Source: Elusimicrobiota bacterium (GTDB taxonomy: Bacteria; CG03; SLGR01; PWQF01). Taken from it: DNA of 11,048 nt. Under the pieces are notes generated by a model. The model was not told the DNA's origin, ran no database searches, and was given only the letters and a program-made list of their open reading frames with translations. Shown one piece after another: positions 669-10,844 of this stretch (the stretch's first letter is position 1; the number at the start of each line of letters is the position of its first letter). The stretch covers positions 1-11,048 of the forward strand of contig PWOI01000045.1 in assembly GCA_003557485.1 (NCBI GenBank). Direction: 5' to 3'. A program made the translations under genes and the position numbers.

Positions 669-1331
669 ATGAGTGAACTACTGAATATAATAACACCTTT
701 GCATAAAAAAGCTGAAAGGGATTATATCGGACGGATGAATGACAACAAGGTCGAGTGCATGAAAATTGCCAAAAAATACGGCCGGGAATTCTGGGACGGG
801 GACAGGCGATATGGGTACGGTGGATATAAATACGACGGAAGATATAAGCCGATCGCCGAAAAACTTATTGAAAAATATAATATTCCAGAACACGGTAAGA
901 TCATTGATATCGGTTGCGCCAAAGGGTTTTTATTATATGAGTTCAAGAAAATTCTGCCGGAATGTGAAATATCCGGGATGGATATCTCCAGGTATGCCGT
1001 TGATAATGCCAAAGAAGAGGTGCGCCCTGACCTGTTTATTCATAAAGCCCAGGAACCTTATAAATTTAAAGACAATGAATTTGACCTTGTTTTATCGCTG
1101 GGAACTCTTCATAACTTAATGATTTATGAACTGAAATCAGCTTTAAGAGAAATTGAAAGGGTTGGAAAAAATAAATATATCGTTGTGGAAAGTTACAGAA
1201 ATGATAACGAATTATTTAACCTGCAGTGCTGGGCCCTGACCTGCAGCCTTTTCTTAACCCCGGATCAATGGATCTGGCTTTTTAAGGAATGGGGTTATAC
1301 CGGCGATTATGAGTTCATCTATTTCGAGTAA
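669..1331 (+). CDS. class I SAM-dependent methyltransferase
   Basis: This 220-residue cytosolic protein has the Rossmann methyltransferase fold. SAM-binding motif I (IIDIGCAKGF) is at residues 78-87, an acidic end of strand beta-2 (SGMD) is near 105, and the motif IV region (FDLVLSLGTLHNL) is at 138-150. An aromatic, glycine-rich stretch (FWDGDRRYGYGGYKYDGR, 41-58) precedes the core and may shape the acceptor pocket. I chose ATG 669 because AAAGGGGAG at 656-664 sits just upstream; a TTG at 642 in the same frame lacks such a site. It is the first gene of a six-gene run, and the transketolase subunit begins 21 nt after its stop. The context suggests methylation of a sugar or sugar-nucleotide intermediate, but the substrate cannot be read from the sequence. 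Confidence 0.88.
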   Translation: MSELLNIITPLHKKAERDYIGRMNDNKVECMKIAKKYGREFWDGDRRYGYGGYKYDGRYKPIAEKLIEKYNIPEHGKIIDIGCAKGFLLYEFKKILPECEISGMDISRYAVDNAKEEVRPDLFIHKAQEPYKFKDNEFDLVLSLGTLHNLMIYELKSALREIERVGKNKYIVVESYRNDNELFNLQCWALTCSLFLTPDQWIWLFKEWGYTGDYEFIYFE

Positions 1332-1352
1332 ACTTAAGTCTGGGGAGGCGAG

Positions 1353-2099
1353 TTGTCTCTATCATCAAAGTTAGAAAAGAAAGCCAAGAGTATAAGACGG
1401 GATATTCTTGACCTTGCCGTTAAACACCGGAACAGTCATATAGCTTCAGCATTTTCGTGCGTTGAAATATTGCTGACGCTCTATGAAAAAATCTCCCCTC
1501 AAGACCGTTTTATCATGAGTAAGGGGCACGGGTGTTTAGCCCTGTACGCGGTGCTTCACTCCAAAGGATTTAACCCTAAGATAGGTGGCCACCCGGATAT
1601 TGACAAAGCGCACGGTGTAGAATGCACCACGGGAAGTTTAGGACACGGGTTGCCTATTGGAGTGGGAATGGCCTTTGCAAAAAAAATTAAAAAACAGAAA
1701 GGGCGCGTTTTTGTATTAATCGGAGACGGGGAATGCGAGGAAGGAACAATATGGGAATCCCTTTTTCTTATTAAAAAACTCAGCCTGCTTAATATCACCG
1801 TTATTATTGACAATAACGGGCTCCAGGCTCTGGACTACATAGAGAATGTGATGGGAGCTCTTGAATTAAAGAAAAAATTCAGAGCTTTCGGCTTCAATAC
1901 CTCTGAAATTAACGGCCATGATTTTAAACAGCTACTTGACAGCCTCTCCCGGGCCTGCAGCGATACAGATCTTCCTGGTGTGATAATAGCCGACACCGTA
2001 AAAGGCAAAGGCTTAAGTTTTATGGAAAACAAGCCATGCTGGCATGCCCGGTTTCCAGATAAGGACTTGCTCAGGCAGGCTTACAGGGAACTGACATGA
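1353..2099 (+). CDS. transketolase, N-terminal (TPP-binding) subunit
   Basis: This 248-residue protein matches the diphosphate-binding domain of split transketolases. The family signatures are all present: His29 in the position of the SGHIGG histidine, SKGHG (56-60), TTGSLGHGLPIGVGMA (92-107), and the TPP/Mg motif GDGECEEG...NN, with GDG at 124-126 and NN at 154-155. In the family, two half-proteins together transfer a two-carbon ketol unit between sugar phosphates using thiamine diphosphate. The start is TTG at 1353 behind GGGGAGG (1342-1348). It overlaps the next gene by 4 bp (ATGA), which implies translational coupling and 1:1 assembly with that partner. Its place in a glycosyltransferase operon suggests a specialised sugar-building role rather than the housekeeping pentose phosphate pathway; that is inference. 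Confidence 0.92.
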   Translation: MSLSSKLEKKAKSIRRDILDLAVKHRNSHIASAFSCVEILLTLYEKISPQDRFIMSKGHGCLALYAVLHSKGFNPKIGGHPDIDKAHGVECTTGSLGHGLPIGVGMAFAKKIKKQKGRVFVLIGDGECEEGTIWESLFLIKKLSLLNITVIIDNNGLQALDYIENVMGALELKKKFRAFGFNTSEINGHDFKQLLDSLSRACSDTDLPGVIIADTVKGKGLSFMENKPCWHARFPDKDLLRQAYRELT

Positions 2100-2584
2100 G
2101 AAGAGAGTTCGGAAAAGTTATAGTTGAACTTGCTGAAAAAGACAAGGATATCATTTTACTTTCAGGAGACTACGGTTACGGAATAGTTGATGAGTTTAAA
2201 AAGCGCTTTCCCCGCAGGTTTTTAAATATGGGAGTCTGTGAGCAGAGTATGATAAGCGCTGCTTCAGGCATGGCCCTGGAGGGATTAAAGCCTTATGTTT
2301 ACACTTTAACCCCTTTTCTGATAGAACGGCCTTTCGAACAGATTAAAATTGATATTGACCAACAGAATGTTAATGTAAAATTAATAGGGTATGCTGACCA
2401 TCCGCACCTGGGGATAACGCATGCTGAGCTTGATGCCTGCTATCTTATGAAGATTTTTAAGAATATAGTTTCATATTTTCCTAATAATTCCAGGGAAACA
2501 AGAGAAGCGCTTTTAAAATCATACCAGAGACCAGGGCCGGTTTTTATAAGCTTAAAAAAGGATAAGACGATCCCTTCTCATTAG
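2096..2584 (+). CDS. transketolase, pyrimidine-binding subunit, lacking the C-terminal domain
   Basis: This 162-residue partner of the preceding subunit carries the pyrimidine-binding domain. The catalytic glutamate that activates TPP lies in NMGVCEQ (Glu49), followed by SAASGMALEG. A GITHAELD stretch with His109 corresponds to the conserved TH/SH loop of the family. The usual C-terminal subunit is about 300 residues because a third domain follows. This one ends right after the last pyrimidine-domain strand (GPVFISLKKD, 147-156), and the next gene begins two bases after the stop, so there is no room for that domain. The end looks clean rather than frameshifted. The ATG lies in an ATGA overlap, with AGGGAA at 2085-2090. 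An active two-domain TPP enzyme is plausible because the active site is built from the two domains retained here. Confidence 0.88.
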   Translation: MRREFGKVIVELAEKDKDIILLSGDYGYGIVDEFKKRFPRRFLNMGVCEQSMISAASGMALEGLKPYVYTLTPFLIERPFEQIKIDIDQQNVNVKLIGYADHPHLGITHAELDACYLMKIFKNIVSYFPNNSRETREALLKSYQRPGPVFISLKKDKTIPSH

Positions 2585-2586
2585 GC

Positions 2587-3657
2587 ATGGGGCATATCTA
2601 TACAAATTTAAAAATTCTTTATTACAGAGAAAAACTGCTCTCTCTTCTTAAAGATAATACCGAGATTTTTCCGCCCCTGCATGTCAGGATTAAGCCTACA
2701 AATTTATGTAACCACAACTGCTATTATTGCGCCTACCGGGTTGACCACCTGCAGTTGGGAAAAGATATGAAAAGAAAAAACAGCATACCCCGGGAGAAAA
2801 TCCTGGAAATAATCGATGATTTTGAAGAAATCGGGGTAAAAGCAGTGACCTTCAGCGGCGGGGGCGATCCCTTTTGCTACCCTTATTTGACAGAAACAGT
2901 TAAAAAACTCTCTGAAACAAAAATTAAATTTGCCGCACTTACAAACGGTTCCCTTCTGGAGGGAGAGGCAGCAGAAATTTTTTCAAATCACGGAACTTGG
3001 CTTCGTGTGTCTATGGACGGTTGGGACGAGAAAAGTTACTCATTTTACAGAAAAACTCCAAAGGGAGAATTTAAAAAAATACTCTGTAATATGGAGAACT
3101 TTAAAAAGAAAGGAGGAAAATGTTACTTAGGCGCGGTCCTTGTTATTGACAAAAATAATTACCCCCATATTTACAACATGGTCAAGCGACTGAAAAGTAT
3201 AGGGGTTGACAGTGTAAAAATAGCTCCCTGTATAGTAAGTAATGAAATAAGGGAGAACAATAAATACCATAATCCGTTTTTTAAAGAAGCACAGAAACAG
3301 ATAAATAAGGCCACCAAGGAACTCAAGGAAGACAACTTTGAAGTATATGATTCCTATCATAAAATGTCCGGAAAATTTAAAAAAAATTATACCTGGTGCC
3401 CCTACATTCAGATACTTACCGTAATAGGAGCGGACCTTAATATTTATACATGCCAGGATAAGGCATATAACCTCAGCAGCGGATTAATAGGTTCTATAAA
3501 AAATAAACGGTTTAGAGAATTCTGGTTTGCAGATAAAAATAAATTTTTCAAGCTCAACCCGTCTATTCAATGCCAGCACCATTGTATATCAAATAAAAAA
3601 AATGAGCTTATACTTGAATATTTAGATGCTGACCCGCTACATCTGCCTTTTGTATAA
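2587..3657 (+). CDS. radical SAM protein with reduced SPASM-like C-terminus
   Basis: This 356-residue protein has the radical SAM cluster motif CNHNCYYC, with Cys41, Cys45 and Cys48 in CxxxCxxC spacing. It also has GGGDP (91-95), corresponding to the SAM-binding GGEP motif, and MDG at 143-145. The C-terminal part keeps cysteines at 271, 289, 329 and 333 around a GSIKNKRFREFW segment. This resembles a SPASM or twitch domain that would hold at least one auxiliary iron-sulfur cluster. Such enzymes cleave SAM to a 5'-deoxyadenosyl radical and modify peptides, sugars or cofactors. The operon contains no obvious precursor peptide, so a carbohydrate-type substrate is my inference. The start follows the previous stop by two bases without a clear Shine-Dalgarno, suggesting translational coupling. 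The stop overlaps the next start by one base (TAATG). Confidence 0.88.
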   Translation: MGHIYTNLKILYYREKLLSLLKDNTEIFPPLHVRIKPTNLCNHNCYYCAYRVDHLQLGKDMKRKNSIPREKILEIIDDFEEIGVKAVTFSGGGDPFCYPYLTETVKKLSETKIKFAALTNGSLLEGEAAEIFSNHGTWLRVSMDGWDEKSYSFYRKTPKGEFKKILCNMENFKKKGGKCYLGAVLVIDKNNYPHIYNMVKRLKSIGVDSVKIAPCIVSNEIRENNKYHNPFFKEAQKQINKATKELKEDNFEVYDSYHKMSGKFKKNYTWCPYIQILTVIGADLNIYTCQDKAYNLSSGLIGSIKNKRFREFWFADKNKFFKLNPSIQCQHHCISNKKNELILEYLDADPLHLPFV

Positions 3658-4448
3658 TGATAGGTATTGCCGGGGCCTCCGGGCTGATAGGATATAATTT
3701 TTACAGGTTTTTAAACTGCCGCGGCTATGATACAATTGGAACTTTTTATTCAAACAGGAAAGACGGGCTGGTAAAATTTAATCTTACTTCAAAAGATTTT
3801 TCCTTATTTAACAACTGCTCTCAGGTAATCATCGCAGCCGCCGTTTCAAATATCGATAAATGTTTTATTGAAAAAGATAAAGTTCGCAGAATCAATGTAG
3901 AAAGCACCATAGAACTTATAAAGTACCTGTCCCGCAAAAAGATAAAACCTGTATTCTTATCTACAGACCAGGTTTTTGACGGAGAAAAAGGAAATTATTC
4001 AACCGAAGATAAGCCCCGGCCTCTGAATTGTTACGGAAATTTCAAGCTTCAGGTAGAAGAATTTATGAAAAAAAATCTGCAAAATTACCTTATTTTAAGG
4101 TTAAGTAAAACATACAGCAGAAATTTAAATGAAAAATCTATTTTCAGTGAAATATATCTTAGTTTATCTAAAAATATTAAAATAGAAGCTGCTTATAATC
4201 AAATATTCAACCCTACGGACGTATCAATGTTATGCGAAATGTTAATAAAAGCTCTTGATTTAAACCTCAGCGGCGTATATCATATTGCAGAACCGAAAAT
4301 AATAAGCAGGCATGAGTTTGCCGTATCCGTCGCTCAGGAATTTGGATTTGATAAAGATCTTATAATACCGGCAGATATCAGGACTCTCAGTTTCCTCAAG
4401 GATACCAGGCCGCTTAATACATCTTTAATAGTTTCAGACCTAAGATGA
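3657..4448 (+). CDS. RmlD-like NAD(P)-dependent sugar-nucleotide reductase (extended SDR)
   Basis: This 263-residue protein resembles dTDP-4-dehydrorhamnose reductase. The N-terminus has the dinucleotide-binding motif GASGLIG (6-12). STDQVFDG (102-109) is the usual RmlD STDYVFDG motif, and the catalytic pair YGNFK (Tyr126, Lys130) follows. The family reduces a 4-keto group on an activated deoxysugar. No RmlA, RmlB or RmlC homologue is in the window, so the substrate may differ from dTDP-4-keto-rhamnose. The C-terminus stops just after a RPLNTSLIVSDL segment. In typical RmlD proteins a matching RP.NS.LDTSKL segment is followed by roughly 20 more residues, so this one looks slightly short. The frame remains open after the TGA up to and through the downstream glycosyltransferase. 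The start overlaps the radical SAM stop and lacks a clear ribosome-binding site. Confidence 0.85.
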   Translation: MIGIAGASGLIGYNFYRFLNCRGYDTIGTFYSNRKDGLVKFNLTSKDFSLFNNCSQVIIAAAVSNIDKCFIEKDKVRRINVESTIELIKYLSRKKIKPVFLSTDQVFDGEKGNYSTEDKPRPLNCYGNFKLQVEEFMKKNLQNYLILRLSKTYSRNLNEKSIFSEIYLSLSKNIKIEAAYNQIFNPTDVSMLCEMLIKALDLNLSGVYHIAEPKIISRHEFAVSVAQEFGFDKDLIIPADIRTLSFLKDTRPLNTSLIVSDLR

Positions 4449-4493
4449 GAACCGACAGAAGCCCCCTCTTACTTCAATACAGGCCCGGGAGTA

Positions 4494-5204
4494 ATGTTTA
4501 AGTTCAATAGCCTTTCTGTCTGCATCCCGGCCCACAATGAGGAAAAAACTCTCAGGGAATCAGTGAAAGATATTCTTCAGACTATGTCTCCTTATATAAA
4601 AAACATAGAACTGATTATTGTAAGTGACGGCAGCACCGACAGAACCCCTGATATAGCTGAAGAACTGGCAAGGGAATATAAGTGCGTAAAAACTATTGAG
4701 CATGAAAAGAAGTCCGGAATAGGGGTGTGTTACCGTGACGCTTTAAAAATTGCCACAGGAGAATATTTTACCTGGTTTCCGGCAGACCACGAGGATCCGG
4801 CATCAAACTTCATTAGGTACCTACCCTTTATAGATAATGAGACGGTGGTAACCTGCCATAGACGCGGCCAGGATCCTCGTTCAAGTTTCCGAATGCTCCT
4901 TTCATATGTTTATACCTGGACTCTTAACATATATTCCGGGTTACATTTAAAGTATTATAACGGCACCGCAATTTACCCTGTTTCGGTATTGCGTTCAATG
5001 CCTATACATTCAAGAGGAATTTTATTTTCAGCTGAAATTTTAATAAGGGCACATAACCTTGGGTGCAGGATAATTGAGGTCCCCGCCGTTTTAAAAAAAA
5101 GGACTTCCGGGAAATCAAAAATACTGACCCCCGACTCGGTTATACAGATCCTGCAGGATATAGCCCTGTTATGGAAAAATAAAATTAAAATGCCTTCTTC
5201 TTAA
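4494..5204 (+). CDS. family 2 glycosyltransferase, DPM1-like, without membrane anchor
   Basis: This 236-residue GT-A fold enzyme opens with SVCIPAHNEE (8-17), the nucleotide-sugar strand typical of family 2. It then shows VSDGSTDRT (43-51) and an acidic metal/nucleotide region PADHED (96-101). A C-terminal KKRTSGKSKI segment resembles the R..G.SK loop of dolichyl- or polyprenyl-phosphate sugar synthases. No hydrophobic C-terminal helices are visible, so it would be cytosolic or peripheral. The family moves a sugar from an NDP-sugar to a lipid phosphate or glycan. As the last gene of the operon it probably uses the operon's own sugar product, or makes a lipid-linked donor for the GT-C-like proteins encoded opposite; both are inference. 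GGGAG at 4487-4491 lies very close to the ATG. Its 3' end overlaps the convergent gene by 20 bp. Confidence 0.88.
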   Translation: MFKFNSLSVCIPAHNEEKTLRESVKDILQTMSPYIKNIELIIVSDGSTDRTPDIAEELAREYKCVKTIEHEKKSGIGVCYRDALKIATGEYFTWFPADHEDPASNFIRYLPFIDNETVVTCHRRGQDPRSSFRMLLSYVYTWTLNIYSGLHLKYYNGTAIYPVSVLRSMPIHSRGILFSAEILIRAHNLGCRIIEVPAVLKKRTSGKSKILTPDSVIQILQDIALLWKNKIKMPSS

Positions 5205-8070
5205 GTAAAGCGTATCCTGTTATTACCAGAAGCAGCGCAGCAGTAGCCATAAAAACCCTTATGCCCCATACCCATCCGATTGGGCGTATTTTAAAAACCA
5301 CGCTCTGCACTCCCTCTTCCACCCATACACCGCGCTGGCAGTAATTAACACGCAAAATGGGAGCGCGGTTTCCGTTTACATAAACTTCCCATCCGGGATA
5401 CCATATCTCTGTCAGAACCAGTATTGACGGCTCATTTATTTCAACATCTACTTTAATGCGGTTGGGATTAGCCATATTAAGATTAACGATCCGGTTCTTT
5501 TGCTGCAAATTATCAAAGTAATGGTCTTCATCGTAAGCTTCGCCGATATTATCCTCTGCCCGGGAAGGTAAAACTGCTGATGTGCTTACATATACGCCCC
5601 GTCTCAAATTACCCTCAACAAGCTGGTTTAACTGCTCTTCTTCCGAGGCCAGCACTATCCTGTCTGCGGTAAATACCCGGGGGAGCGCGTTATGGTTTGT
5701 ATGAACAAAAAACCCGGAATCACAGGGAAGTTTTACGGAATCGCCTTCCGAAAAAAGTGAGTCAGGCTCTTCATTCAACATATACCTGACTGAAAAATTG
5801 TTAAGAAAAGAAATATTCCTTGGATCCGGAAGGTCGTAATAAATATCCCATCCTATTTCCATATCATATGCGGTTTCAAATGCTTTCTTGAAACGGGCTT
5901 CTATGGGATGCATAGAAAACCCCATTAAAGCAGATTCTCCGGTTATTCTCACATAACTGTCAAAATACGGCATTGAAGTAGCTAACCGCATATCGGACAT
6001 CTTGGTTACCGCCGGAAGTGATTCGGTCATAACCTGGATAGCCTGCTTTTCATGAGGCCATGCGAACCTCTTATGGTCAGGCTCGTCAAAATTACTCTTG
6101 TAAAAGGTCAATGTTCCCAAAATTAAAAACTCTCCCATAGCAATTATGCCCAGCAAATACCCGAATTTTTTAAGGGGTAGGAAATATAACCCTGATATTA
6201 TAACGGCAGAGACCAGCACCCAGTAAATAAGTGAAGATCCCAGCGGCTTCCTCAAATCCTTTAATCTCTCATAAAAATATTGTTTTTCAACTGCAAGTTT
6301 ATCCGTATACTTAAAATAAATAGATGTAACCCCAGACTTTTGACTCCATTTATCCCTGGCGGAGTCATAAAAAAAACTCTTATCCGCATATTTCTGCTCT
6401 TCATATCCCAAGCCGGCATTACCGGACTTTTGACGGAGCCATACAAACTTGCCTGGAGGAATTTCAACATCAAATGTATACCAACCCTCTCCTTCAACAT
6501 AATACTCAGCGGCGAGTTCACTGTCTTCAGGCGAGCCCCGGGAACTCTCTCCAAATCGTATTTCTCCTGAGGAAGCTGAATCAAAAAAAGCACCGATTTT
6601 TTTAAGTTTAAAATCGGGAGAATACCTGCCAAGCGCTTCACCTATAGGATAATAGTTTTCTGCTGCCTTTAAGGGAGGCTCTGACCAGGTTGATTCTCCG
6701 GGATAACAGGCGGGTATCAAACCGGCAGCGCTTATCATAAATACAGCGGCGACATATACCCAGACCCAGGGTTTCAGCTTATCTTTTAATCTAAACAAAA
6801 GTTTTGAACTTATAATGTAATCAAGAGAAACCGGTGCCAATACCGCTACAGCAAAACACTGCAGCACCCTATAGCGGGAAGGAAACGGGAAATTCCTGAC
6901 AAATGGCAGGTTTCCTATAATATACCTGTAAAATGGGGTATGTTTTCCCATGGCGGCCAGGAGCGCAATTATATAAACTCCGCCGAATATGATAACCCAA
7001 CGACGTTTTTCCCGGGCTTTTAAATCGCCCGGAGGCCCCCTTAAGGCCGGGAGAAGGCTCAATAAAACAAGCAGGGATACTGCCATACCCCCACTCATAT
7101 TGGCTTCCCAGTAATATACAAATTGAGGAAGAAGCCTGCGGGTATATTCTCCGGTCACACTTGAAAATAAGTTTGGAATAAAAAGCGTAGCCAAATATGG
7201 CGGGGGCACATTCACCGGATCATGACTTAAAGCCTCTTCTACGGTCAGGTCAAGATGTTTATCCGAGTATCTGCTGCCCTCAATAGAAGAAACAAGATAA
7301 AAACTACTGAGCCCCATGCCTATTGCAGCCATAAGAAACGCTGTGGTCAAGGGGGATTTTATTGCTTTTTTTATTCCTTTATGAGCGCTGTTTAAGACAA
7401 GAAAAATTAATACCGCGCTCCATAGAAACGCGACAAAATGAAAAAAACTTACCTGTCCGGAAATTAAAACGAGTGAAAAAAGAACTCCGCCGGCTATTAT
7501 TTTCCAGAGGCTGAACTTTTTGACGGAAGAAAAGTAAGTTAAAAAAAGCCAGGGAAGCCAGGCATGCAGGGTAACAAACTGAGGCCATACGTGAGCATAC
7601 ATCAGAGCGGGACTGAAAATATATGCAAGTGCTCCAAAATATGCTGGGAACGTGGAGCATCTCAGAGCGCGCTTTAAAAAGAAATAGAACCCGGCGGCGG
7701 CCAAGGCATAATGTGCAAATTGCGGAAGAAGAACGAGAAACCAATAGGAATGTGCAAGGTTTTTAAGATCGGCCAGCATGAAAAAAGGCCAGTTCAGTAT
7801 ATAATATGTGTCCGCATGGTATACAGCGTAAAAGGGACTTGCGCCGCACCATATACTAGGATCCCAGAGAGGAAAAACACCCGCCTGGAGGTTGCGGCTT
7901 AAGAAGTAAAACCTTGGAAAATCTTCACGGAACAGATCATTATGAAAGATTCCCGCAAGTCCTGTCATTGCCGGAAAAAACAAAACTGCTACTACCAATA
8001 TAAGCAGCAGAACCGAAATAATATCCGGGGTTAAAAATTGCTTAGCACTTAATGATTTTTTGTTTCTCAT
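5185..8070 (-). CDS. YfhO-family (GT-C-like) multi-spanning membrane protein, 961 aa
   Basis: This large membrane protein of the YfhO family (putative GT-C glycosyltransferases or glycan-export factors) starts with a TM helix near residues 17-37. The acidic first loop follows (HNDLFREDFPRFYFL, 43-57), then AGVFPLWDPSIWCG (63-76), both typical of this family. About a dozen hydrophobic segments follow. The extreme C-terminus has the family motif WYPGWEVYVNG (890-900) and a final TM helix. A hydrophilic insert of about 150 residues (roughly 455-609) separates the membrane segments and looks beta-rich. I preferred ATG 8070 over TTG 8088 because the TTG lies in sequence that probably derives from an insertion-sequence end; neither has a good Shine-Dalgarno. 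It likely acts on lipid-linked sugars at the outer face of the membrane. The 3' end overlaps the glycosyltransferase gene tail to tail. Confidence 0.85.
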   Translation of the reverse strand: MRNKKSLSAKQFLTPDIISVLLLILVVAVLFFPAMTGLAGIFHNDLFREDFPRFYFLSRNLQAGVFPLWDPSIWCGASPFYAVYHADTYYILNWPFFMLADLKNLAHSYWFLVLLPQFAHYALAAAGFYFFLKRALRCSTFPAYFGALAYIFSPALMYAHVWPQFVTLHAWLPWLFLTYFSSVKKFSLWKIIAGGVLFSLVLISGQVSFFHFVAFLWSAVLIFLVLNSAHKGIKKAIKSPLTTAFLMAAIGMGLSSFYLVSSIEGSRYSDKHLDLTVEEALSHDPVNVPPPYLATLFIPNLFSSVTGEYTRRLLPQFVYYWEANMSGGMAVSLLVLLSLLPALRGPPGDLKAREKRRWVIIFGGVYIIALLAAMGKHTPFYRYIIGNLPFVRNFPFPSRYRVLQCFAVAVLAPVSLDYIISSKLLFRLKDKLKPWVWVYVAAVFMISAAGLIPACYPGESTWSEPPLKAAENYYPIGEALGRYSPDFKLKKIGAFFDSASSGEIRFGESSRGSPEDSELAAEYYVEGEGWYTFDVEIPPGKFVWLRQKSGNAGLGYEEQKYADKSFFYDSARDKWSQKSGVTSIYFKYTDKLAVEKQYFYERLKDLRKPLGSSLIYWVLVSAVIISGLYFLPLKKFGYLLGIIAMGEFLILGTLTFYKSNFDEPDHKRFAWPHEKQAIQVMTESLPAVTKMSDMRLATSMPYFDSYVRITGESALMGFSMHPIEARFKKAFETAYDMEIGWDIYYDLPDPRNISFLNNFSVRYMLNEEPDSLFSEGDSVKLPCDSGFFVHTNHNALPRVFTADRIVLASEEEQLNQLVEGNLRRGVYVSTSAVLPSRAEDNIGEAYDEDHYFDNLQQKNRIVNLNMANPNRIKVDVEINEPSILVLTEIWYPGWEVYVNGNRAPILRVNYCQRGVWVEEGVQSVVFKIRPIGWVWGIRVFMATAALLLVITGYALLKKKAF

Positions 8071-8147
8071 TCTGGTATGTAAAGTCAAAAATGCACACCG
8101 GATTTCTTATTGCCGCAAACCTCTGATTCTTGTATTTGTTATACCTT

Positions 8148-8348: not shown

Positions 8349-10844
8349 TTATTTTGCCTCTTTCACAAGCTCCTTCAGTTTTTCCGCCATATTCTTTTTA
8401 CCCATGGATTTAAGTTTTTCAGCCTGTTTTAAAAGATTTTCCTTATCATCCAATCCATAATATACCCGCCCAAGATTCAAATAGGCATCCGCAACAAAAG
8501 GAGGGTTGAGTTCAATGGTCCGTTTAAAATTTTCTATGGCTCTTTTAAAATCTCCGAGTTCAGCATAAGAATATGCCAGGTTTATATACCCGTCGGCATA
8601 CTCAGGGTCAATATCCACCGCTTCCTTAAAATACTTTTTTGCTTCCTTAAAACTGCCTTTTTCAAAAAAGATATTACCCAGCCTGGTATACGCATATATA
8701 TATTCAGGAGAAATCTCCAAAACCTCTTTTAGAACCTCAACGGCTTTCTCAGGGTCACCTGCCCGGAGATATGTATCTGCCAACCTAAGGTAAGCATCCT
8801 CCCGGCCGGGAGGGATCTTCGCAGCGGATGAAAAGTAACCTGATGCTTTATAGTAATCCCCCTGCTCAAAGGAACGTTCCCCAAGAATCCTATAGAGATT
8901 GTAACCCGCCCAGGCCTCCACGGCCCCGGCGTAATATTCCAATTTTCTCCCGGAGAAAACGCTCCGGAATACGGCAAGGGTTTTAAAAAGATTTCTCTTA
9001 TTTCCTCGCAGGTATTCAAATTTTTCAATACCCTTTTCTCTCCGATAACTCTTGTATTCTACAAACTGTTCGTAATAATCCCTGTAAAAATCCATCCCCC
9101 ACTCCCCGTACATATCCTGTATAAGCTTCTCTTTTCTTTCGACCAATTCATACTTACCCATCAAATCAAAAACATATATAATTTCAATCATTGAAGTCAG
9201 GTTCTCAGCTTTCGCATACTCGTCAGGTTTTAGCATATAATGCTGTAACTCATTACCCAGATAACCTTTTTCAAGAAACGCCTCAACATTTCTCCTGTTA
9301 TTATTCACATTAAGTACTGTAAACAAAGTATAACTTGCAAATAAAAATAACGTGAGATAAGTAAATATACGCAAGGATTTGTCGCTATTTAAGTCTTTTA
9401 TACCCCAGCAATCAAACTCCGCCTTTTTGATACGAAAAATCAGAAGATAAAACAAGTAACCAAAAACCATAAATAGCGGCAGTGTAAGCCTTAATTTTAT
9501 ATCCAAATCCTTTGCTGAAAAAATCCGGGAGAGATATCTCAGATGGGCGATTCTAAGTGAAATAGGCCAGGGGTTTACGAGATATTCGTAATCTATACCG
9601 GTTATATATTCAACAGTAACCATCAGGTTCCATAGCACGCATATCACAGAAACCAGGATAAGAGCCGTCTTTACCCGTTTGCTCTTGAAGTATGATATAA
9701 GTAAAGCCAGCAAAATAACAAAAACAGTAAACTCCGTAACAAGCACCCTGGGACCGGGGGTTCCCAGCCCCCAGGAAAATCTAAGCGAAGTAACGGTCAT
9801 CTTAACCATCATAAAAGTAGCAAAAAATAATATTACAAGGTCTCTGTTTTTATTTCCTAAACCGTCTCTGTTTTTCCTGATTAGGTTCCATGCCGCCACC
9901 AGAACGCCCAGCATACATAAATAAAGAATCGGAGAGAAATAAAAAAAGCCGCGATAACGGGAAAACATCTGCTCAATAAAATAGCTGTCCTGAAAGTTTA
10001 TAACACCGAACTCCCCCATATAGAGCCTTCCGTATTTTATGTAGTCGTTTATTGTTTTAAAGACTATAGGCGGCAATACCCCAAGAAGGAAAAACACCCC
10101 TTTTTGCCAATCAGCCCGTTTTTGGTACAGCAGCCATAAAAAAATGAGGCCTATGAAAAAGGGTAGAAACCATACGTCAACTTTAACCACCATAGCTATC
10201 CCGAAAAAGATCCCAAACATAAACCAGTGCTCTTTTTCGGCTGCGGTAACATGCCTGAAATACCATATTGAGAGAACCATAAAAAGCAAAGCGATAATGT
10301 TGGCATTGCCGGTTTCTTTAAATGCAAATAAAAAGACAGGAGTCCCGAAAAAAACCGCGATTGAAGCAAAAAAAGCGACAAAATCCGAAAAGAACGAACG
10401 GACTATAATAAAACTCAGTATAAGTGAGATAATTCCGAATATTAACGAACTAAACGAAAGCACGCACTTAGTAAGTTCCTCCGTTGTATAGGAAGAAAAA
10501 AAATCAATTCTTAGCTTGGTGTCTAAAAATTTCAGAGTACTTGCGTATACATAAAAAGGAGCCCACAGAACTGTTCCTCCGTGATTATGCTGCGTAGGAA
10601 GATTAAATGTAGGCGATACACCGTAAGTTCCGTCATGGAATATGTAAGGATAAACTTTTTCGATATAATTTACAGGATTAAGGTCCCGGTCCTCAACAAT
10701 ACTTCGTGTATAAGCATAATAAATAGGCATATCAGGACCTCTGAATTCGGTTTCAAATGAAAGAAAACCGACCAGAAACACAGCAAGAAGAGAAAAATAT
10801 ATAATATTTTCTCCGGAAATAAACCCCGGTTTGTTTTTAAACAT
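8349..10844 (-). CDS. GT-C/GT39-like integral membrane protein with C-terminal TPR array, 831 aa
   Basis: About twelve hydrophobic segments occupy residues 15 to roughly 520. The first loop after TM1 contains RGPDMPIYYAYTRSIVEDRDLN (35-56), matching the acidic first extracytoplasmic loop of GT-C/ArnT-like transferases; Asp38 is the likely key acid. A soluble linker follows, then TPR units starting near 645, with three clear 34-residue repeats at 681-782 (for example AYLRLADTYLRAGDPEKAV) and a partial fifth to the end. GT-C enzymes take sugar from a lipid phosphate, and TPRs mediate protein contacts. The fusion therefore suggests a transferase or assembly scaffold at the cell envelope. The ATG at 10844 is preceded by an AGGGAG Shine-Dalgarno. 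It is first in the minus-strand pair, separated from the YfhO-like gene by the transposase relic. Confidence 0.83.
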   Translation of the reverse strand: MFKNKPGFISGENIIYFSLLAVFLVGFLSFETEFRGPDMPIYYAYTRSIVEDRDLNPVNYIEKVYPYIFHDGTYGVSPTFNLPTQHNHGGTVLWAPFYVYASTLKFLDTKLRIDFFSSYTTEELTKCVLSFSSLIFGIISLILSFIIVRSFFSDFVAFFASIAVFFGTPVFLFAFKETGNANIIALLFMVLSIWYFRHVTAAEKEHWFMFGIFFGIAMVVKVDVWFLPFFIGLIFLWLLYQKRADWQKGVFFLLGVLPPIVFKTINDYIKYGRLYMGEFGVINFQDSYFIEQMFSRYRGFFYFSPILYLCMLGVLVAAWNLIRKNRDGLGNKNRDLVILFFATFMMVKMTVTSLRFSWGLGTPGPRVLVTEFTVFVILLALLISYFKSKRVKTALILVSVICVLWNLMVTVEYITGIDYEYLVNPWPISLRIAHLRYLSRIFSAKDLDIKLRLTLPLFMVFGYLFYLLIFRIKKAEFDCWGIKDLNSDKSLRIFTYLTLFLFASYTLFTVLNVNNNRRNVEAFLEKGYLGNELQHYMLKPDEYAKAENLTSMIEIIYVFDLMGKYELVERKEKLIQDMYGEWGMDFYRDYYEQFVEYKSYRREKGIEKFEYLRGNKRNLFKTLAVFRSVFSGRKLEYYAGAVEAWAGYNLYRILGERSFEQGDYYKASGYFSSAAKIPPGREDAYLRLADTYLRAGDPEKAVEVLKEVLEISPEYIYAYTRLGNIFFEKGSFKEAKKYFKEAVDIDPEYADGYINLAYSYAELGDFKRAIENFKRTIELNPPFVADAYLNLGRVYYGLDDKENLLKQAEKLKSMGKKNMAEKLKELVKEAK

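Follow-up and report, generated by a model that had tools for sequence, protein, structure and literature searches.

The split transketolase of Carboxydothermus hydrogenoformans (6yaj/6yak; PMC7661550) is encoded by two genes and is, in sequence and in structure, the best match to both subunits of a putative two-gene transketolase from an Elusimicrobiota bacterium. The genes for this enzyme lie on contig PWOI01000045.1 (C59), which was analysed over its whole 11,048 bp (the window) and belongs to a draft genome of 2.07 Mb that is 86.6% complete. They form a six-gene operon with genes for a methyltransferase (MT), a radical S-adenosylmethionine (SAM) enzyme (rSAM2), an RmlD-like reductase and a family 2 glycosyltransferase (GT2). 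The window's enzyme differs from that of C. hydrogenoformans in its second subunit, which is without the C-terminal domain and without residues H461, D469 and R520, and in its glycan-type operon. Split-gene transketolases have also been proposed for the miharamycin and amipurimycin clusters, where they would transfer a hydroxyacetyl unit to a keto sugar, an activity that is unproven (PMC12247030). These resemble the window's enzyme by description but serve nucleoside antibiotics of Streptomyces. In the yersiniose pathway, YerE-type enzymes that depend on thiamine diphosphate (ThDP) branch the nucleotide keto sugar of a surface polysaccharide; the likeness is again one of description, and these enzymes belong to the decarboxylase superfamily and use 2-keto acids (PMC12247030). 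Branched sugars made by ThDP enzymes are thus already known from surface glycans, whereas transketolase-made ones are a proposal, as yet unproven, for Streptomyces antibiotic clusters (PMC12247030).

The reading that we prefer, with belief and doubt about evenly balanced, is that the operon encodes the tailoring arm of a surface-glycan sugar pathway that would use ketol transfer to a sugar other than a simple sugar phosphate. The pathway is widely shared, apparently undescribed, and probably builds and attaches an unusual cell-surface sugar; literature searches of open-access papers returned no published description of this combination of genes. A sequence-only reading had described an operon of six tightly joined genes. 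Open reading frames (ORFs) and Pfam domains bear out that set, and all five junctions are as then given: in gene order, a 21-nt gap, an ATGA overlap, a 2-nt gap, a one-base TAATG overlap and a 45-nt gap. The contig ends may truncate the gene cluster. The genes of the operon are as follows.

669 to 1331, plus strand: MT, class I SAM-dependent methyltransferase, 220 aa (Pfam Methyltransf_31/11)
1353 to 2099, plus strand: TK-N, thiamine-diphosphate (PP) subunit of the split transketolase, 248 aa, TTG start (Pfam Transketolase_N)
2096 to 2584, plus strand: Pyr subunit of the split transketolase, 162 aa (Pfam Transket_pyr only, residues 2-157)
2587 to 3657, plus strand: rSAM2, radical SAM enzyme, 356 aa (Pfam Radical_SAM, E 5e-26)
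3657 to 4448, plus strand: RmlD-like NAD(P)-dependent sugar reductase, 263 aa (Pfam RmlD_sub_bind, E 5e-37)
4494 to 5204, plus strand: GT2 glycosyltransferase, polyprenyl-phosphate-sugar-synthase-like, 236 aa (Pfam Glycos_transf_2, E 3e-27)

A split transketolase with an altered substrate pocket

The PP and Pyr subunits are encoded by adjacent, overlapping genes, which is the layout of a split-gene transketolase. The best PDB match of TK-N is 6yak (E 5e-48) and the Pyr subunit matches 6yaj. With E. coli TktA (locus L073) as the reference for alignment and numbering, the ThDP- and metal-binding and catalytic residues H26, H66, H100, D155, E160, N185 and H261 are kept in TK-N together with the GDG..N motif, and the Pyr subunit retains E411 and H473. 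The sugar-phosphate and donor residues H461, D469 and R520 have all been replaced. The same three residues were retained in 10 of 10 metabolic-type split transketolases (L013, L014, L017, L019, L021, L022, L026, L028, L030 and L032). Among the glycan-type transketolases, H461 is lost throughout, D469 is lost except in L024, and R520 is replaced in many. Mutating R358, S385, D469 and R520 of E. coli transketolase was shown to improve activity on aromatic aldehydes (PMC7661550); S385 is not reliably alignable here. Losses at positions that alter acceptor use in the E. coli enzyme suggest a non-standard acceptor for the window's transketolase. This altered pocket was overlooked by the sequence-only reading, and the signature H461/D469/R520 sets the candidate enzymes apart from metabolic transketolases. 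The metabolic and glycan types also separate in a tree of the concatenated subunits with a support of 99, and the window's enzyme sits there on a long branch.

The two subunits of the transketolase had been recognised earlier, but the missing C-terminal domain of the second had not. Pfam finds no such domain in the Pyr protein, and a tblastn search of all the window DNA was negative as well, so the domain has been lost and not frameshifted. In the sample searched, almost all Pyr matches lie within frames of about 300 aa or longer. Two other Pyr subunits without the C-terminal domain were found, in L047 (5925-6422, 165 aa) and L048 (5580-6083, 167 aa). Both group with the window's transketolase in the concatenated tree (support 84), likewise on long branches, and both of their clusters carry genes for an HldE-like nucleotidyltransferase-kinase and a second radical SAM enzyme. 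In the PP subunits of L047 and L048, the residue aligned with H100 is C.

The absence of the domain and of early pathway genes, together with the long branch, could mean that the operon is what remains, decayed or incomplete, of a larger cluster, with a transketolase that is non-functional. We consider this very unlikely, since the reading frames and gene couplings are intact, both subunits keep their catalytic residues, and L047 and L048 share the loss within clusters of related content. The AlphaFold model of the 162-aa Pyr subunit is also confident (predicted local distance difference test, pLDDT, 85.8), and it aligns with the Pyr part of the C. hydrogenoformans enzyme 6yaj at a template-modelling score (TMq) of 0.85-0.87. 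The domain loss offers a chance to test whether ketol transfer needs that domain. The enzyme is also distinct from the housekeeping transketolase and DXS. The sequence-only reading had allowed that the genes might be housekeeping ones present in a single copy, but full-length copies of both enzymes are encoded elsewhere in the same genome (a 695-aa frame on contig C113 for transketolase and a 624-aa frame on contig C206 for DXS).

A cassette shared among phyla

Relatives of the operon were traced by a protein search with rSAM2, by further genome searches and through a plasmid of Solidesulfovibrio carbinolicus. The rSAM2 search led to a metagenome-assembled genome (MAG) labelled Planctomycetota, a Nitrospirae MAG, an unclassified bacterium and Lachnospiraceae MAGs. 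In total, 13 further genomes, spread over several phyla, were found to combine TK-N, the second transketolase subunit (TK-C), MT and rSAM2. The four genes stand in the order TK-N, TK-C, MT, rSAM2 in 10 of these (L036, L037, L038, L044, L045, L064, L066, L068, L069 and L070) and in other orders in the Lachnospiraceae loci L039, L040 and L042. Identity to the 13 homologues is 50-66% for MT and 38-63% for rSAM2. The association of these genes is more than chance, since in all 13 genomes conserved members of the MT and radical SAM families lie next to, or not far from, the genes of a split transketolase. The earlier view of the genes as a functional unit is thus upheld, and the core recurs across phyla within glycan-type clusters and not in scattered, unrelated contexts. 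The core, often with an RmlD-like gene, is conserved; the exact order of the six genes was not found elsewhere. A search with MT only (E <= 1e-70) returned 17 genomes. A split transketolase lies within about 10 kb in 14 of the 17, which is good evidence that MT and the transketolase belong to the same pathway. Of the remaining three, one has no split transketolase across 18 kb of sequence, and in the other two the flanks are short or cut off by a contig end.

The transketolases linked to MT and rSAM2 fall into about three lineages, one of them being that of the window. A tree of MT and rSAM2 has a different topology: L036 joins L044 at a support of 73, while their transketolases sit in different groups. 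A stable MT-rSAM2 pair may have been kept while the transketolase genes beside it were exchanged, although the supports in the MT and rSAM2 tree are modest.

Further genes accompany the cassette. Of the 13 genomes (counted with an extra flank, L099, for the genome of L069), 10 carry an HldE-like fused nucleotidyltransferase-kinase and 9 a GmhA-like isomerase. A second radical SAM enzyme, whose identity to the L044 protein is 39% or more, occurs in 10. None of the three was present at the 10 loci with metabolic-type split transketolases. At ten glycan-type split transketolase loci without rSAM2 the heptose-type genes are mostly missing as well, and the heptose-gene link is therefore to MT-bearing clusters. 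The presence of heptose-type activation genes in the relatives was not recognised in the sequence-only reading. The GmhA-like and HldE-like scores are below curated cut-offs, and the HldE-like protein of the relatives differs from that of the known NDP-heptose (nucleoside diphosphate heptose) pathway (GmhA, HldE) in the reverse order of its domains.

Sedoheptulose-7-phosphate is a product of transketolase and the substrate of GmhA. This shared intermediate, and the GmhA-like and HldE-like genes in most related clusters, favour the main competing explanation, in which the split transketolase is a dedicated feed of ketose phosphate (sedoheptulose-7-phosphate or a relative) to a heptose-type pathway. 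A GmhA-like isomerase and an HldE-like kinase and nucleotidyltransferase would then yield an NDP-heptose, to be followed by methylation and radical modification. We regard this as a serious contender but, on balance, unlikely. The window's enzyme has lost H461, D469 and R520, the scores below cut-off mean that the substrates of the GmhA-like and HldE-like proteins may differ, and sedoheptulose-7-phosphate is already supplied by the housekeeping transketolase. Moreover, searches of the source draft genome found neither a GmhA-like gene nor the fused nucleotidyltransferase-kinase, a result that weighs against the preferred reading as well as the heptose feed. The early pathway steps may be encoded elsewhere, missing from the assembly or replaced. 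In the source genome, an HldE-type kinase domain protein adjoins lpxK and kdsB, and a homologue of the second radical SAM enzyme (46% identical) is encoded on contig C102.

Several observations were made on the surroundings of the cassette in individual genomes. On plasmid pDCAR1 of S. carbinolicus (L064:682-29844), the cassette lies among pseB, pseC, pseF and a gene for an MptE-like protein, and is thus surrounded by nonulosonate/flagellin-type glycosylation genes; a second split transketolase pair is located about 10 kb upstream. At least one candidate comes from a named strain deposited in a culture collection, S. carbinolicus DSM 3852. In several clusters (L066:7103-8164, L069:5597-7222), the transketolase pair is closely preceded by a gene whose product weakly matches APH-type phosphotransferases; the Solidesulfovibrio gene at the same position carries the annotation aminoglycoside phosphotransferase family protein. 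In L045, a gene for a B12-binding radical SAM protein (L045:12883-14343) is located downstream of the cassette. A GSU2086-family protein (NCBIfam NF052581, 349 bits against a cut-off of 250) is encoded at L037:2959-3918, with homologues in L036, L038, L045, L066 and L069. One 67.7-kb contig carries the cassette cluster twice, the second time as an inverted copy (L066, G349:C15:5000-24000; L067, G349:C15:44000-63000). The two copies share ORF sizes and scores and may represent either a genuine large inverted repeat or an error of assembly. In L065 (G014:C159), from the same phylum as the window, an rSAM2 that is 60% identical to the window's and 71% identical to that of L038 was found on a 9.7-kb contig with no MT or transketolase. 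A phage origin was ruled out: viral contigs held no relative of rSAM2, and the Pyr matches in the phage collection were only 27-34% identical.

Radical SAM enzyme, reductase and proposed pathway

The rSAM2 protein has a CxxxCxxC core motif and four further cysteines in its C-terminal third; Cys 41/45/48 and 271/289/329/333 are invariant in nine sequences. Its top family score is to the tungsten cofactor oxidoreductase radical SAM maturase (TIGR04317), and its best structural matches include SkfB and SuiB. The enzyme might accordingly mature a peptide or a metalloenzyme, with the operon modifying a peptide or protein and the sugar genes being mere neighbours. This is quite improbable given that the tungsten-maturase score of 93 bits is far under the cut-off of 380, that no precursor-peptide gene is seen in the tight operon, and that the partners across genomes are nucleotide-sugar genes. 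The sugar enzymes DesII and BlsE are also among the structural matches.

The 263-aa protein is assigned by its domain to the RmlD_sub_bind short-chain dehydrogenases/reductases (SDRs). It is not called RmlD (dTDP-4-dehydrorhamnose reductase), for which it reaches 131 bits against the NCBIfam rmlD cut-off of 224. No rmlA, rmlB or rmlC was found within the 11-kb window, in agreement with the earlier statement that the usual dTDP-rhamnose enzymes are absent. In L044 an RmlD-like gene directly follows rSAM2 and its product is 54% identical; more distant ones occur near the cassette in several other genomes.

Under the preferred reading, the two-subunit ThDP ketolase would take as acceptor a sugar other than a simple sugar phosphate, probably a keto sugar in nucleotide-activated form, and add a two-carbon hydroxyacetyl unit to a carbonyl of it; the product would be branched or chain-extended. 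The RmlD-like enzyme would reduce a keto group, MT would methylate the sugar, and rSAM2 might catalyse an epimerisation, oxidation or deoxygenation. The finished sugar would be transferred by GT2, perhaps onto polyprenyl phosphate, and perhaps be used from there by the adjacent GT-C proteins as in CsbB-YfhO (PMC5836110). Gene content, replaced residues and co-occurrence are direct results; the acceptor, product, carrier and order of steps are inferred. In favour of this reading, genes typical of nucleotide-sugar synthesis, for an isomerase, a kinase-nucleotidyltransferase and SDRs, are present in the relatives. Besides the genes missing from the source genome, four points count against it: no enzyme that forms a 4-keto sugar was found on the contig, R520 is kept in some glycan-type relatives, GT2 is not a fixed neighbour of the cassette in the relatives, and the structural matches of rSAM2 (model pLDDT 69.7) are a mixture of peptide (SkfB, SuiB), nucleotide (viperin) and sugar (DesII, BlsE) enzymes. 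A narrower proposal can be made only tentatively. It holds that a minimal two-subunit ketolase of the transketolase family, without the C-terminal domain, adds two carbons to a nucleotide-activated keto sugar, in a surface-glycan pathway of several phyla that also has a radical SAM sugar enzyme and a dedicated MT. If this is true, cell-envelope glycans would contain branched or extended sugars made by a transketolase, a reaction so far proposed for Streptomyces antibiotic clusters (PMC12247030). The loci described here provide a set of candidates for keto-sugar transketolases outside Streptomyces, with recurring MT and radical SAM partners.

Glycosyltransferase and membrane protein genes

Residues 3-225 of GT2 align over nearly its full length with dolichol-phosphate mannose synthase 5mlz. 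The remainder of the window is occupied by two genes on the opposite strand.

5185 to 8088, minus strand: convergent membrane protein, weakly YfhO-like, 967 aa (YfhO, E 3e-4, below the gathering score)
8349 to 10844, minus strand: membrane protein, PMT_2-like with C-terminal tetratricopeptide repeats (TPR), 831 aa (PMT_2, E 1.5e-9; TPR domains)

Both proteins are possible GT-C glycosyltransferases to judge from these matches, and both may be connected to the operon. Pairing of a GT2 with a YfhO-type membrane protein is known from the CsbB-YfhO system of lipoteichoic acid glycosylation in Bacillus subtilis (PMC5836110). In the window, by contrast, the YfhO-like gene runs towards the operon from the opposite strand, and its Pfam score does not reach the cut-off. 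On contig C102, a GT2 paralogue (54% identical) is encoded by a gene that overlaps a YfhO-like gene, and there the YfhO match is above the gathering score. This part of C102 (L105:2187-13136), which includes the 46% identical homologue of the second radical SAM enzyme, is a second glycan-type region and also encodes another radical SAM/SPASM protein and TPR proteins.

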